The translations under genes were made by a program, and so were the position numbers. DNA of 64,000 nt from Desulfurobacteriaceae bacterium (GTDB taxonomy: Bacteria > Aquificota > Aquificia > Desulfurobacteriales > Desulfurobacteriaceae): positions 62,001 through 126,000 of the forward strand of contig JAMOTD010000006.1 in the NCBI GenBank assembly GCA_027068415.1, written 5' to 3'. The stretch's first letter is position 1. The number at the start of each line of letters is the position of its first letter. This document shows, piece after piece, positions 53,105 through 61,173 of this stretch. The notes beneath the pieces are model-generated. The model saw only the letters and a program-made list of their open reading frames with translations, was not told the DNA's origin and searched no databases.

Positions 53105-54906
<1,802 letters not shown>

Positions 54907-55026: not shown

Positions 55027-56286
55027 TCAGCGACTCTTTACGAATGTCTCGTAGAAGACTTTTGTATTGTGAAAGCCGCGGCGTTTGTTTCGGTTTGAGC
55101 CCCTGAAGATAACGACGTCTATTCCCAGCTGACGGCAGACCGGACAGGAGCACTCCTTCCAAATTTTGCTCTTTAGGAGGGAGAGGTAGAGCTCCGCGTA
55201 CTTTTCCTCCTTAAACTCCTCCCTGTAAAAGAGCTTATCGTAGGCTATTACCTCTTCGACCAAGGCCTCAACTTCTCTCAGGCTTCCCCTGTCGTAATCC
55301 CTCAAGCCTTTTAAAATTTTCTCTTCTCTCTCTTTAAGGCCAGAGTGCTCACCCTTTAACCTCTTTCTGAGCCTCGGATTTGAGGAGTCGGGAACTCTAA
55401 TAGAGGCGTACCACTTCCGGTCAACCCCGAGATAGTTCTCCTTTGCCTTGAGCCAAGCCTTTCTAAAGTAAGAAGCACTGTCAAAGCTGAAGATTCCGCA
55501 GGAGGCCATCTTGGGTAGGAGCTCCTCCCTTAAAACGCCCAAAAGGTGAACCTTTATACCCGAGAGGTCTATCTCCCTGTAGAGGGCCTCAAGGAGCCGG
55601 CCTATGAACTCTGTCGGTCGAGGGACGAGCCCGCCGAGGGCAACAAACCTGTAGCCCATCTTTACAAGCTTCTTAACGCTGTCAACGTAGGTCTCAACCG
55701 AGTAGCCCTGAGCCGCACCTACGGGGGTAAATGGAGCTCCCATGCTCTCTTTCAGAAACCTCTCGGCGTTCTTAAGGCTCAGCTGACGCCTCCCCTCAAG
55801 CTCCTCTTCCGAAAGGAGGAGCTTTACTTTTCCCCCTTTAACAGGTTTAACATCTTTGAACTTGAACTTCTCGGCATCCTCCTCTTTTACCGTAATTGTT
55901 TCGGCACAGATGTGGTCAACCGAGATTCCGTAGTCAAAGCCAAGCTTAGAGTAGAGCTCAACTGCGTGGGGAACTTCCATCTGAGGCTCTTTGCTTGAAA
56001 CGTAGGTAAAGGCTCCGCAGTCTCCCAGAACGGGAAAGGATGAGGGGAGTTTTAAGTATTCCTTTATGTTTTTGTAGCCCCTTATCGTCGGCCTTCCGTT
56101 AACCCTTATGAGCCTCAGCTTGAGCTCAAAGACGCCGAGGCTTACCAGAATTCCGTCGTAGGGGGGAGGGGTGAAAATCTCGTGGGCGAAGAGGGCGTTC
56201 TTAAAGCCGCCGCTACCGTAGGTATCCTTAATCGGGTCAAAGTCCCTGTGAACCCAGTCTTCCCAGTAGGGCATAAAGTACTTCAA
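55027..56286 (-). CDS. DpdA-like TGT-fold transglycosylase (putative 7-deazaguanine insertion into DNA)
   Basis: VLGDCGAFTYV and FSFDSASYFRKAW parallel the two TGT catalytic Asp motifs; FVALGGLVPRP; C-terminal CSCPVCRQLGIDVVIFRGSNRNKRRGFHN zinc site. Confidence 0.85.
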   Translation of the reverse strand: MKYFMPYWEDWVHRDFDPIKDTYGSGGFKNALFAHEIFTPPPYDGILVSLGVFELKLRLIRVNGRPTIRGYKNIKEYLKLPSSFPVLGDCGAFTYVSSKEPQMEVPHAVELYSKLGFDYGISVDHICAETITVKEEDAEKFKFKDVKPVKGGKVKLLLSEEELEGRRQLSLKNAERFLKESMGAPFTPVGAAQGYSVETYVDSVKKLVKMGYRFVALGGLVPRPTEFIGRLLEALYREIDLSGIKVHLLGVLREELLPKMASCGIFSFDSASYFRKAWLKAKENYLGVDRKWYASIRVPDSSNPRLRKRLKGEHSGLKEREEKILKGLRDYDRGSLREVEALVEEVIAYDKLFYREEFKEEKYAELYLSLLKSKIWKECSCPVCRQLGIDVVIFRGSNRNKRRGFHNTKVFYETFVKSR

Positions 56287-56322
56287 GCCGTTCTCCGGGA
56301 AAAAAGTGTGAAGGTAATTATC

Positions 56323-57228
56323 TCAAAGGGAGAGGAACTTGGGGCAGTCAAATCGGAAATCGCAGGCAAGGCAGGTTTTCTTATCAATTTGAGAGGGGAG
56401 CTCCCACCTCCCACTCTCCTTGGACTTCTCAATCTCACGGACGATTTCGGAGAACTCCCTTATAAACCCCTCAACCTCCTTAACGGTCTTTTCGTCGGTA
56501 AAGTCTATCTCGTAAACGGCCCTTGAGAGCTTCTCCTTCAAACTTTCCCCTTTTAAGAGCTCATTCATAAAGAGCAAAACTGCTCTCCTCGGGTAGCAGC
56601 CGTTCCTCTCTTTAAAGAGGTAGCCGTAAACGAACATCTGCTTGGTGTAGATTTCTATCTTCTTCCTGCCCAGGGGGGTTGAGGGCTCGGGTCTCTCCAT
56701 TCCCTTGTAGTCCCAGATTTCAAACTCCCCGCCCTCAACTTTCAGGGCGTCAACAATTCCGTAGAGGATAAAGTGGGGGAGCTCCTTTATCAGCCTGAGC
56801 TCGGCCTCCTCAATTTTGGGGATAAAGTCCCCTGCCAGAAGGCGGCAGAACTCCTTCAAAAGGGCTATTACCCTCTCCCTTACCTGAGGGGAGGAGGGCC
56901 TTACCCCTTCGGCCTCCATGGCGCTCTCAACCTTCCTAAAGAGCTCCTCAACGTCATCCTCACCTATAACCCTCTTATCAACCCTATAGACGGTGTGAGC
57001 CCTCTTTAAGAAGCGGTGAATTACGCTACCGTACCACTCCTGAGTAGGGTTTGAGGGAGCAAAGCCGTAGAAGCGGTAAAGCCCGTACTGACGGGGACAC
57101 ATTGAGTAGGAGATTATGTCGCCGGTAATCGTGTACCTCTCCTTTATCTTCTCCTTTTTACCGGAGAGCTTTTTCCCTATTCTTTTGCTGAACCTCTCTA
57201 ACCTCTCAGCTATCTCCTGAGCTCTCAC
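56323..57228 (-). CDS. PD-(D/E)XK nuclease, Cas4/AddB-C-like with Fe-S cysteines
   Basis: YSMCPRQYGLYRFYGF; YGIVDALKV...FEIWDYKGM; QMFVYGYLF; KKTCLACDFRFDCPKF. GTG 57228 proposed as start; the ORF is open to 57330. Confidence 0.82.
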   Translation of the reverse strand: MRAQEIAERLERFSKRIGKKLSGKKEKIKERYTITGDIISYSMCPRQYGLYRFYGFAPSNPTQEWYGSVIHRFLKRAHTVYRVDKRVIGEDDVEELFRKVESAMEAEGVRPSSPQVRERVIALLKEFCRLLAGDFIPKIEEAELRLIKELPHFILYGIVDALKVEGGEFEIWDYKGMERPEPSTPLGRKKIEIYTKQMFVYGYLFKERNGCYPRRAVLLFMNELLKGESLKEKLSRAVYEIDFTDEKTVKEVEGFIREFSEIVREIEKSKESGRWELPSQIDKKTCLACDFRFDCPKFLSL

Positions 57229-59452
57229 TCTCAACCTTCCTCTTAAAGGAGTTTTTAAACTTCTGCAGTTTGGCGGGGTCAAAGCCCGGAAAGGCGGCCG
57301 TTTTCCAGGGCCTATTTTCGTCGTTCTCAATTCCCTCTCCGGTCAGTATTATCAGGGCGTAGATAGCCCGGGAGTAGGCAACGAAGAAGCGCTTAACGGC
57401 CTCAACGGCACTCCTCTCCCAGGAGTTCCCCACCCTGTAGGGCAGGTACTCCTTAAAGAGCTCCTCAAGCTTTGAGAGCCTGAAGTCGGCCGAGAGGCCG
57501 TCAACCTCCCCTACGAAAACTATCGGGAACTCAAGGCCTTTGGACTGGTGAATTGTCATCAGGGGGAAGTAGCCGGAGGGGACTTGGGGGAGCTCCTCTT
57601 GGTCAACCTCGCCTCCGAGTAGGAGAGGAAGGAAGGAGCGGTAGAACTCGCAGAAGCTCTGAAGCCTGACCGCCGTTAACCTAAGCCATCTCTCCCTCTC
57701 CTCTCCGTTCAAGTCCTCCGGCTCTCCAACCTTAATTCCCAGCTTCCTGCAGAGCTCGGCAACTTTAGCCGGGAGCTCCTGCCAGCCGTCAACCTCCTTC
57801 CTTGAAAGGGCTTCAACCGAAAAGAGGAGCTGGCTGAGCCTTGCCAAATTAAACCTCTCAATCTCCCCCTTTACCTTCAGGTGGGGAATCAGCCTGTAGA
57901 AGACCTCAAGGAGGGAGATTTCACCCCTCTCAACCTCGCCCTTAAGTGCAGAGATAAGCTCTGCAGGGAAGGTTTCGGCAGCCCTCTTCCAAGGTTCAAG
58001 CTCCTTTAAGAGCTCCCCGCCGGTGTCGGAGGGAGGAGGGATAACCTTTAAAAGAGCCCCCACGGTTCTGTAAACCTCCTCCCTTTCCTTAAAGGCCTTT
58101 GAGCGGGGGTTATAAACCCCTATACCGGCAGGCTCAAAAACCTTCCTTATAAAGGCCGCAAGAGTCTTCTCTCCGCTAAAGCTCCTCTCTCTGGTACTGG
58201 GAAGGAGGAGAACGGCATCGGAGTAATCCTCAATTACTCCTCTTTCTTTTAAGGCCTTTAAGAGCTCAAAGGTAAAGCGGGCAAGGGAGCTCCTGTCTCC
58301 TTTAACTTCAAATACGGCTCCTCCCAACTCAGGGTAGGAGTCTATTCCCGAGAACCAGAGGACTTTCTTGTCGGTTGAGAGGGAGCTCCAGACCTTCTCA
58401 AACTTCCCGTAGCTCCTGTGCTTCTTCATAAAGTAGTTGATAAAGGCGACTATTGACTTATCGGAGCGGTAGTTTTCAAGGAGCTTCACCTTCTCCGGCT
58501 TTACACCAAGCTCCTTTTCACACCTACTTTCAAAGTCTATGAAACACTCAACAACGGCACCCCTGAAACGGTAGAGGGACTGGTAGTCGTCTCCTACAAC
58601 GGTAAGGTTTTTGCTCCTGCGGGCAAGGGCGAAGTAGATTTTCTCGTCCAGAGGGTTTGTATCCTGATATTCGTCAACTAAAACGGCTTTTATTCCAGGA
58701 AAGTAGTCGGTTCCGTCCCCCCTTAAAAAGAGACATCCCTCATCCTCCTGTAAAAACCGAAAGAACATCCTCTCAAGGAGGGCGTGGTCAAGAAACGATT
58801 TCTCCTTAATGAGGTTGAGGTACTTCTCGTAGAGCTCCCCCGCATCCCTTACCGCCGCTTTCGTGCTCCTCTTCAGTCTTTTGTGGGAAACTAAATTCTG
58901 AGTGAGGAAGTCAAAGAGGAAGGAAAGGAGGGAGAGTCTATCAAGGGAAGTCTGCTCCCTCTCCCCCTTAAACTCACCAAAAAAGGCCCCTCTGCCTTCC
59001 TCAATCTCCTGACGGAATTCCCTGTAGATGAAGAGCTCCCTCTCAAACTCCCCCACCAGCCTGTACCTGCCGTACCTATCGTAGTGGAACTCGTCCATAA
59101 CCCTTGCGACCAAGGAGTGGAGGGTTCCGCAGTAGAGCTCGTAGGGCTCTAAGGGGAGCTCGGAGAAGATTTCCCGAAGTTTCCCCGCGTACGAAACGAT
59201 TCTGGTTAAAAGCTCGTTTGCCGCCTTCCTCGTAAAGGAAACGAGAAAGATAGACTTGGCGGGAAAACCCTTAACGGCCATAAAGTAGAGAGCCCTCAAA
59301 ACCAGAACTTCAGTCTTCCCCGAGCCGGGGCCTGCAACGACCTTCAAGGGCTTTTCTGGAAAGGAGATTGCCCTCTTCTGGCTCTCGTTTAACCTCTTTC
59401 CCGAAATCTCCTCAACGGCAGAAAAGAACTCCTCTCTACTCAGAAGGCTCAA
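57206..59452 (-). CDS. UvrD/Rep-family (SF1A) DNA helicase
   Basis: LNESQKRAISFPEKPLKVVAGPGSGKTEVLVLRAL; VDEYQDTNPLDEKIYFAL; VVGDDYQSLYRFRGA; MTIHQSKGLEFPIVFVGEVDG. Confidence 0.93.
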   Translation of the reverse strand: MSLLSREEFFSAVEEISGKRLNESQKRAISFPEKPLKVVAGPGSGKTEVLVLRALYFMAVKGFPAKSIFLVSFTRKAANELLTRIVSYAGKLREIFSELPLEPYELYCGTLHSLVARVMDEFHYDRYGRYRLVGEFERELFIYREFRQEIEEGRGAFFGEFKGEREQTSLDRLSLLSFLFDFLTQNLVSHKRLKRSTKAAVRDAGELYEKYLNLIKEKSFLDHALLERMFFRFLQEDEGCLFLRGDGTDYFPGIKAVLVDEYQDTNPLDEKIYFALARRSKNLTVVGDDYQSLYRFRGAVVECFIDFESRCEKELGVKPEKVKLLENYRSDKSIVAFINYFMKKHRSYGKFEKVWSSLSTDKKVLWFSGIDSYPELGGAVFEVKGDRSSLARFTFELLKALKERGVIEDYSDAVLLLPSTRERSFSGEKTLAAFIRKVFEPAGIGVYNPRSKAFKEREEVYRTVGALLKVIPPPSDTGGELLKELEPWKRAAETFPAELISALKGEVERGEISLLEVFYRLIPHLKVKGEIERFNLARLSQLLFSVEALSRKEVDGWQELPAKVAELCRKLGIKVGEPEDLNGEERERWLRLTAVRLQSFCEFYRSFLPLLLGGEVDQEELPQVPSGYFPLMTIHQSKGLEFPIVFVGEVDGLSADFRLSKLEELFKEYLPYRVGNSWERSAVEAVKRFFVAYSRAIYALIILTGEGIENDENRPWKTAAFPGFDPAKLQKFKNSFKRKVESESSGDS

Positions 59453-59888
59453 ATCCGGCCTCCCTCAGCTTTTCTAAGAGCTCCTTAATTCCTCCCATAT
59501 TTCCCGTGCCGAAGGAGAGGAACTCAACCCCCGCCTCTTCTGAGGCCTCCTTCAAACACTCGTAGTACTCCCTTCTCGCCCCTCCCCTAAAGTAAACAAC
59601 GGCGTCAAACTCTTTTAAAACCTTTACTACCTGCTCTTTTAACTCCCTGCACCTCTTCCTATCCATTACGGCCTCGTAGGGCTCAATAATTTCGTCGCCC
59701 CCTACAAGGCCGTACTTTGCACTTAAGATGAAAAAGGGGACTCCGAGCTCCTTAGAGCGCCTGTAGAGGTGCCTTATTCTCGCGCTTTTATAGAGTTTAC
59801 CTGCGGCGGTGGGTTTCTCCTCTTTCTTCCCTCCGCAGGCGGTTATAAGGGCTACTTTCCTGCCCAAACCTCCCCCCTGAATCGGCAC
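59436..59888 (-). CDS. DUF6884-like protein
   Basis: VALITACGGKKEEKPTAAGKLYKSARIRHLYRRSKELGVPFFILSAKYGLVGGDEIIEPYE, matching the remembered CxxKK / A.LY / ILSAKYGL / PY pattern. Confidence 0.7.
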   Translation of the reverse strand: MPIQGGGLGRKVALITACGGKKEEKPTAAGKLYKSARIRHLYRRSKELGVPFFILSAKYGLVGGDEIIEPYEAVMDRKRCRELKEQVVKVLKEFDAVVYFRGGARREYYECLKEASEEAGVEFLSFGTGNMGGIKELLEKLREAGFEPSE

Positions 59889-60793
59889 TTCGCTCCCTGA
59901 CGGGTATCCCTCCTCTCAAACTCTCTCCTGATGGCCTCAATTACCTTCGGCTTTTCCCTCTGGGTGCACCAGGAGGGGCCGACGAGGAGTTCTGGCGGGG
60001 CCTCACCTGTAATCCTCTGAATTACTGTCTTTTCCGGAAGCCTCTCAATAAAGTCAACAACGAGCTTTGCGTACTCTTCAAGCTCAAGGAGTTTAAAGGG
60101 CTTTTCCTGGTAGATTTCGGCAAGTTTCGTTCCCCTTATAACGTGGAGGGGGTGAATTTTTACGCCGTCAAGCCTTAAAGAGGCTATAAAGTCGGCAGTC
60201 TCCAGCATGTCTTCGTAGTCTTCAGTCGGAAGGCCCAAAATCGTGTGGGCGCAGAGGTTTATCTTGGGAAATTTCCTAACTCTCAAAACCGCGTCAATAA
60301 AGTCCGAAACCCCGTGCCCCCTGTTCATAAACCTTAAGCTCTTAAAGTGGGAGCTCTCAAGCCCAAGCTCAAGCCAGACCAGGTAGTCGGAGGTGTAGGA
60401 GTTTAGGAGCTCCAGAACCTCGTCGGGAACGCAGTCAGGACGGGTTCCCACTATCAGGCCGACAACCTCCTTAAACTCTCTAATAGCGTCGTAAATGGGC
60501 TTTAAGACTTCAGGCGGAGCGTAGGTGTTGGTGTAAGCCTGAAAGTAAACGAGGAACTTCTCGGCCCCGTAGCGGCGGCGGACCCTCTCCATACCCTCCC
60601 TAATCTGCTCCCTAACGGAGAGAGCCCTCTTCTCGGGCCGGTACTCAGAGCCCGAGTAGCAGTAGATACACCCGCCCCTTCCCTTCGTTCCGTCTCTGTT
60701 GGGGCAGGTGAACCCGGCGTCAACCGTTATCCTGAAAACCTTTTCTCCGAAAGTCTCCCTGAGGTACTTTGAGTAGGAGTAGTACCTCTCCAC
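59852..60793 (-). CDS. Radical SAM protein, TIGR01212/YhcC-like
   Basis: YYSYSKYLRETFGEKVFRITVDAGFTCPNRDGTKGRGGCIYC; YFQAYTNTYAP; GTRPDCVPDEVLELL; LGLESSH. Confidence 0.9.
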   Translation of the reverse strand: MERYYSYSKYLRETFGEKVFRITVDAGFTCPNRDGTKGRGGCIYCYSGSEYRPEKRALSVREQIREGMERVRRRYGAEKFLVYFQAYTNTYAPPEVLKPIYDAIREFKEVVGLIVGTRPDCVPDEVLELLNSYTSDYLVWLELGLESSHFKSLRFMNRGHGVSDFIDAVLRVRKFPKINLCAHTILGLPTEDYEDMLETADFIASLRLDGVKIHPLHVIRGTKLAEIYQEKPFKLLELEEYAKLVVDFIERLPEKTVIQRITGEAPPELLVGPSWCTQREKPKVIEAIRREFERRDTRQGAKCRFRGEVWAGK

Positions 60794-61173
60794 TACTCCT
60801 CCTCTTCCTCCTCAAACTCAATCCCTATGGGGACAAACTCTGCAACGTCAGAGAGGCCCCACTCCTCAAACTTCCTGCTCCCCTCCTCTTCACACTCAAT
60901 AGGAACTACGAAGATAAAGCCCTCCCCCGAGCGGCGGCAGTGCTCGGCGATTGCCTTGGCCTTCTTTTCCGCCTCCTCGGTCTTTAAAGTGTTGCAGTCC
61001 TCAACCTGAACGGCTATCTGCTGCCTCTCACCTTCCTCATTCTCATAAACGGCCAAGAAGTCGGGGAGGTACTCTTCACCTTCAGCTTCGGGCTCGTAAA
61101 TCTCAAAGCCCTCTTCCTCCATCAAAATAGCCATAAGCTCCATGAGCTCTTCTTTAGTCAGTCCTTGTTCCAT
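60793..61173 (-). CDS. Small acidic protein, possible degenerate restriction-endonuclease-like fold
   Basis: 126 aa; LPDFLAVYENEEGERQQIAVQVEDCNTLKTEEAEKKAKAIAEHCRRSGEGFIFVVP; very acidic C-terminus. Overlaps the radical SAM start. Confidence 0.55.
   Translation of the reverse strand: MEQGLTKEELMELMAILMEEEGFEIYEPEAEGEEYLPDFLAVYENEEGERQQIAVQVEDCNTLKTEEAEKKAKAIAEHCRRSGEGFIFVVPIECEEEGSRKFEEWGLSDVAEFVPIGIEFEEEEEE

Follow-up and report, generated by a model that had tools for sequence, protein, structure and literature searches.

A predicted four-gene, DpdB-less Dpd-type module with a UvrD and PD-(D/E)XK nuclease pair as candidate effector in Desulfurobacteriaceae

At one locus of a Desulfurobacteriaceae bacterium, a gene for a DpdA-like transglycosylase lies beside genes for a DUF6884 protein, a UvrD-like helicase and a PD-(D/E)XK nuclease, which raises the question of whether these genes form one system and, if they do, what that system may be for. 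The window, the whole stretch of 64,000 nucleotides (nt) analysed here (GenBank assembly GCA_027068415.1, contig JAMOTD010000006.1, positions 62,001 to 126,000), holds, between 61173 and 55027, six minus-strand open frames at about the positions first read. A preliminary description had taken all six for an operon and a candidate genome-integrity system. Our analysis shows that the functional unit comprises four genes in the order DUF6884, UvrD, PD-(D/E)XK and DpdA, and we consider it probable that this unit is a restriction-modification system, a minimal form of the Dpd type that lacks DpdB and has an effector of AddAB/Cas4-like kind.

Domain calls were made by scans with Pfam, NCBIfam and PADLOC models. 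The last gene of the unit scores 353.5 bits against NF041059 (cut-off 200) and only about 12 bits against models of tRNA-guanine transglycosylases (TGTs); its product matches PADLOC DpdA with an expectation value (E) of 5e-103 and aligns to the Salmonella DpdA structure 7UI4 with E 5.5e-80. The catalytic aspartates D89 and D269 and the zinc site C379, C381, C384 and H406 (own numbering) are conserved relative to 7UI4 and invariant in 13 relatives, and a profile of 13 relatives retrieves, among solved structures, Salmonella DpdA alone. By these matches the product is identified as a true DpdA, distinct from the adjoining tRNA Tgt, and the preliminary description was right to set it apart from the tRNA enzymes. 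A rough ratio of nonsynonymous to synonymous substitution (dN/dS) lies between 0.06 and 0.15 for UvrD, nuclease and DpdA.

The DUF6884 protein, of 150 amino acids (aa), matches PF21818 at 54.7 bits (cut-off 30) and carries a CxxxK motif (C18 to K22) and an SAxYG motif. It has been reported that the DUF6884 family has CxxxK and LSAxxG motifs and kinship with YaaA, and a role in recognition of odd bases and nucleotide flipping has been proposed for it (PMC11701544); DUF6884 has also been described as a domain of dpdC (PMC11888242). PADLOC models of DpdC match the Aquificota protein weakly, and when it is compared by profile with DpdC proteins of plasmids it reaches E 2.7e-6 and a probability of 88.5% over 56 columns. 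Three of these plasmid proteins have true N-termini upstream of their annotated starts, which carry the same Thr-Cys-x-x-x-Lys motif, and on five plasmids, four from cyanobacteria and one from Paenibacillus, DUF6884 forms the N-terminal part of a fusion with DpdA (5/5 above the Pfam cut-off). Profile, motif and fusion together identify the protein as a predicted DpdC-type domain.

The helicase matches the UvrD N-domain (PF00580) at 156 bits (cut-off 23) and its motor motifs are invariant, and the nuclease matches PDDEXK_1 at 66 bits (cut-off 22). In 14 nuclease homologues spanning Aquificota, one cyanobacterium and two alphaproteobacteria, the RecB-type residues H105, D194, D207, K209, Q231 and Y235 and the iron-sulfur (Fe-S) cysteines C78, C320, C323 and C329 are all invariant. 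With a pfam12705 nuclease next to a UvrD helicase here, or joined to it in one protein in relatives, and with a gene for DNA modification close by, the locus has the domains and the arrangement described for UvrD-Cas4-like defence proteins. In a tree made by a quick method and containing some long branches, the module UvrD clusters with Dpd-adjacent helicases of Scytonema, Bradyrhizobium and Rhizobium, in a group with 98% support by the SH-like approximate likelihood-ratio test that also holds haloarchaeal plasmid UvrD and a DISARM-adjacent pair of Nostoc, and the housekeeping UvrD that these genomes also encode stands separate. A viral origin was rejected, as viral contigs yielded no relative and phages one distant match. 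The same type of UvrD-nuclease pair was also seen after DISARM drmA-drmC on a Nostoc plasmid and before a methyltransferase-helicase pair in Priestia (L133, L134).

Whether the four genes belong together was examined in 24 genomes of the order, in some of which the DpdA locus is split over contigs. DpdA is present in 13, and 13/13 of these also carry DUF6884, the module UvrD and the module nuclease, so that the arrangement is not a chance one and the neighbourhood, on whose conservation in relatives the first proposal had depended, is kept. The 11 genomes without DpdA, among them one 99%-complete congener, also have no orthologous UvrD and nuclease, although one of them (G017) has DUF6884 in a variant set; the co-occurrence of nuclease and DpdA gives a Fisher p of 4e-7 for the 24 genomes, with relatedness uncorrected. 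This distribution bears directly on the view that UvrD and the nuclease are an AddAB-like housekeeping pair for end processing or repair and that DpdA and DUF6884 are only operon companions. The pair does resemble AddAB/AdnAB, the sole solved relative retrieved by the nuclease profile is AddA (a weak match), the alternative HerA-NurA pair described below is a known end-resection machine, and an unfused UvrD/Cas4-like pair has been reported from outside defence contexts in Clostridiales (PMC5704561). However, where a housekeeping AddAB/RecBCD would be lineage-wide and DpdA-independent, the orthologues of this UvrD and nuclease were found among the 24 genomes only in DpdA-positive ones; every genome has another UvrD, which groups apart from that of the module, and in several further phyla the pair likewise follows DpdA. 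Because of its absence from the 11 DpdA-less relatives and the separation in the tree, we reject the housekeeping break-repair pair with a passenger DpdA, which the preliminary description had offered as its plain alternative, and regard it as quite unlikely. Its proposal that an AddAB-like helicase-nuclease is the putative effector stands; a dedicated UvrD-nuclease lineage tracks DpdA.

The edges of the unit could also be placed. Directly behind MnmL, the congener G021 has a convergent gene, which we take from its sequence to be rlmH-like, and its module site is empty. Similarity with G022, a congener that has the module, ends at the end of MnmL for G021 and at the end of dpdA for the window; these two breaks therefore delimit a four-gene cassette with sharp edges. 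Module presence is patchy in the order and its flanks change. The radical SAM gene upstream encodes MnmL/YtqA (TIGR01212, 366 bits; cut-off 180), and since it and the small acidic protein also occur in DpdA-less relatives, the two are mere neighbours, which rejects the six-gene operon as the functional unit. Thus, of the six-frame reading, the six minus-strand frames and their domain calls were correct, but the radical SAM and acidic genes are housekeeping neighbours, and the predicted compact modification-plus-processing module survives as a conserved unit of four genes.

Another finding from this study is that effectors are swapped among relatives. UvrD and nuclease are separate in this window and in L040-L043 and L053 (variant a), fused into one protein of about 920 aa in L044, L046 and L048 (variant b), preceded as a fusion by NurA and HerA in L045, L047 and L054 (variant c), and replaced by NurA and HerA alone in a second family (variant d; L049-L051, with L056, a fragment, showing part), while DUF6884 and DpdA are constant across all four. 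Because L044, L046 and L045 have upstream and downstream genes in common, a gain or loss of NurA-HerA must have taken place inside a single site. Another variant (e), in G017, G033 and G095, combines DUF6884, NurA and HerA with a TGT-like protein of 318-338 aa. Compared by profile with DpdA, this short protein gives E 1.6e-13; its two catalytic aspartates line up with those of DpdA and the zinc site is missing. Its suggested DpdA kinship rests on that comparison, its structure model being of low confidence with a predicted local distance difference test (pLDDT) score of 58. DUF6884-NurA-HerA with a short, zinc-site-less DpdA-related protein was also observed in L068, L069 and L135. In L050 and L051, from another family, the DUF6884-NurA-HerA-DpdA set sits between cas3 and cas4/cas1, and the module has, immediately upstream in L044-L046, a gene for a BrnT-type toxin, assigned by a scan in L045 and by clustering of the copies in the other two. 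The NurA of L136 is 100% identical over 530 aa to NurA of a genome of a different family, which indicates either a misbinned contig or a recent transfer.

These surroundings also bear on the idea that DpdA modifies RNA, or has a role in host DNA, such as repair or protection from heat, and plays no part in defence. In its favour are the frequency of the module in one thermophile family (13/24 genomes of the order) and the tRNA enzymes MnmL and Tgt on its two sides; but the model of the DNA enzyme family fits DpdA far better than those of tRNA TGTs do, and the patchy distribution, the changing flanks and the CRISPR and toxin-antitoxin neighbours speak against it, so that we hold it to be very unlikely. 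The genome-integrity theme of the preliminary description likewise finds no support, and the evidence favours restriction or defence.

The association recurs independently on plasmids and in other phyla. Among 72,556 plasmids, a DpdA homologue occurs on 26 and a homologue of the module nuclease on 26, and both occur on 8 against 0.009 expected (hypergeometric p about 1e-22, or about 8e-8 with a pool of 1000 plasmids). The closest cases of DpdA with UvrD and nuclease are those of Scytonema, Bradyrhizobium, Rhizobium and Halobaculum. In Scytonema, DpdA with fused DUF6884 is followed by a DGQHR (DpdB) gene, UvrD and nuclease; in Bradyrhizobium, the pair is divergent to DpdC-DpdB-DpdA-DpdB-queE-queD-queC; in Halobaculum, a few kb separate it from queC, folE, queE, a queD-like gene and a DpdA fusion. 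Plasmids of Halomicrobium, Natronococcus and Salinigranum, with DpdA and nuclease about 13-38 kb apart, are weaker evidence. On plasmids of cyanobacteria, alphaproteobacteria and haloarchaea, the UvrD-nuclease lineage is a neighbour of dpd clusters. Plasmid dpd clusters often hold, besides DpdA, a second, shorter TGT-like gene of about 310-345 aa (L087, L089, L091, L099).

How could such a minimal system work? Of the pathway genes looked at, QueC is present in 24/24 genomes of the order and QueF in this genome, so preQ0 is available. The canonical tRNA Tgt next to the module is a further sign that the preQ pathway is in use in this cell. DpdA would exchange guanine in host DNA for preQ0 taken from the queuosine pathway. 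The predicted DpdC-like DUF6884 protein would then probably convert preQ0 in DNA to amido-deazaguanine (ADG) via its conserved cysteine, or else help DpdA in the choice of the base; hydrolysis of dPreQ0 to dADG is ascribed to DpdC in PMC12839542. As an AddAB/AdnAB-like machine, the helicase and the Fe-S nuclease would unwind unmarked DNA, such as that of phages or plasmids, and degrade it, with the effector reading the mark. Several observations weigh against this scheme. DpdB (PF14072) is absent from this genome, also beside the module, and from 22/24 genomes of the order, although it joins DpdA in most plasmid clusters examined; no specificity subunit is visible in the module; and Foldseek searches of the PDB with the DUF6884 model (pLDDT 87) gave no convincing structural relative, so that it is sequence that ties the protein to DpdC. 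The YaaA resemblance expected of that model was not recovered in the same search. DpdB may be dispensable in some Dpd systems, according to work cited in PMC12839542. The scheme could also run the other way, as in a type IV-like system in which the nuclease attacks 7-deazaguanine DNA or DpdA and DUF6884 tag invaders for destruction and do not protect the host. The odd-base recognition and nucleotide flipping proposed for the DUF6884 family would suit such a role, and the DNA that is cut could be in either state, but DpdA would then mark the host chromosome too, unless limited to invaders, and it is their own DNA that known Dpd islands mark (PMC11888242). We judge this reversed arrangement unlikely and favour restriction of unmarked DNA.

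The module shares with the Dpd system dpdA-K of the Salmonella Montevideo type the DpdA active site, a partner with a predicted DpdC-type domain, preQ0 from the queuosine pathway, and helicase and nuclease companions. Unlike that system, it has four genes and no DpdB, its DpdC is cut down to the 150-aa DUF6884 protein, and UvrD with PD-(D/E)XK, or HerA-NurA, takes the place of DpdD-DpdK (SNF2, YprA-type DpdJ and the PLD nuclease DpdK); no match to DpdD-K models stood among the matches listed for the scanned genes (for UvrD, the best 25 of 54). The distinction from classical Dpd drawn in the preliminary description was correct. BRIGADE and Dpd-like hybrids also combine 7-deazaguanine genes with other helicases and occasionally with PD-(D/E)XK nucleases (PMC12458937), and haloarchaeal plasmids resembling them carry the module-type UvrD-nuclease; however, those systems are defined by YprA-like helicases, of which the module has none, and have been reported solely from halophilic archaea (PMC12458937). 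The UvrD-Cas4-like proteins of defence loci (pfam12705), separate or fused and next to modification genes, were linked to restriction-modification loci in 2017 (PMC5704561), but the accompanying genes there are those of type III restriction-modification and of Dcm/Vsr, and the terms transglycosylase, queuine, TGT and deaza are missing from the paper. BRC (PMC12839542), like the NurA-HerA variants, joins a HerA/FtsK-type motor to a TGT homologue, but has PglZ, BrxC-like and STAND parts and, by its authors, no DpdC homologue, whereas DUF6884 and NurA belong to the sets described here, which lack BREX components; the module has no YprA-like helicase, PglZ or BrxC-like ATPase. NurA and HerA belong to the families of the end-resection machine, but are here encoded between DUF6884 and DpdA and not with Mre11-Rad50. 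Dpd variants without restriction genes or with changed effectors have been described (PMC11888242, PMC12458937). In the open-licence literature, most subscription papers lying outside the search, we found no description of DUF6884 and DpdA with UvrD-PD-(D/E)XK or HerA-NurA. With Dpd-like hybrids and UvrD-Cas4 effectors of restriction-modification loci already in the literature, we regard the module as a Dpd variant with a DpdC-type domain and not as the wholly new kind of system first suggested. Whether it represents a distinct 7-deazaguanine restriction-modification subtype, with a DUF6884 and DpdA writer without DpdB, interchangeable end-processing effectors (UvrD-PD-(D/E)XK or NurA-HerA) and recombination machines as base readers, and with the sets of short, zinc-site-less DpdA included, is to us an evenly balanced matter.

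Coordinates of the module and its neighbours in the window
Feature	Position	Strand	Basis
dpdA, predicted DNA 7-deazaguanine transglycosylase	55027..56286	-	NF041059, PADLOC DpdA, alignment to 7UI4
PD-(D/E)XK nuclease with Fe-S cysteine set (AddB/Cas4/Dna2-like)	56323..57234	-	PDDEXK_1, invariant residues
UvrD-like superfamily 1 (SF1) helicase, defence-associated lineage, intact motor motifs	57206..59452	-	PF00580, motifs, tree
DUF6884 protein, predicted minimal DpdC-like domain for completion or recognition of the base	59436..59888	-	PF21818, weak PADLOC DpdC, profile comparison
MnmL/YtqA radical SAM tRNA-modification enzyme, non-member neighbour	59852..60793	-	TIGR01212; found in DpdA-less relatives
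Small acidic protein, weak TnsA-N-like match, non-member neighbour of MnmL	60793..61173	-	sub-threshold PF08722
Canonical tRNA Tgt (queuosine), separate gene	53782..54888	-	TIGR00430, 533 bits (cut-off 307)

Overlaps amount to 1 nt between the acidic and radical SAM genes, 37 nt between the latter and DUF6884 and 17 nt between DUF6884 and UvrD. The nuclease start at 57330 (longest frame, 125 nt overlap with UvrD) is disfavoured, and 57234 or 57228 preferred, because relatives support a shorter start; both candidates have AAGAGGAAGG just upstream and give an overlap of 23-29 nt with UvrD. The nuclease and DpdA genes are 36 nt apart, and the tRNA Tgt gene lies 138 nt downstream of dpdA. Scans for promoters and terminators gave matches not above chance. 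The acidic protein adjoins MnmL in four DpdA-less relatives too, as a separate conserved pair, and the Tgt match at 18268-18687 of L043, in G022, is a short fragment.

In large Dpd systems, the parts that write the mark and those that read it are hard to dissect. If our interpretation is true, a four-gene, DpdB-less version with effectors swapped at one locus between close relatives would make these writer and reader questions testable, and DNA end-processing machines, whether AddAB-like or HerA-NurA, would act as restriction effectors with a modified base as their guide. It would also extend 7-deazaguanine defence to Aquificota, which were unreported by the GATOR-GC survey, where dpdB was required.

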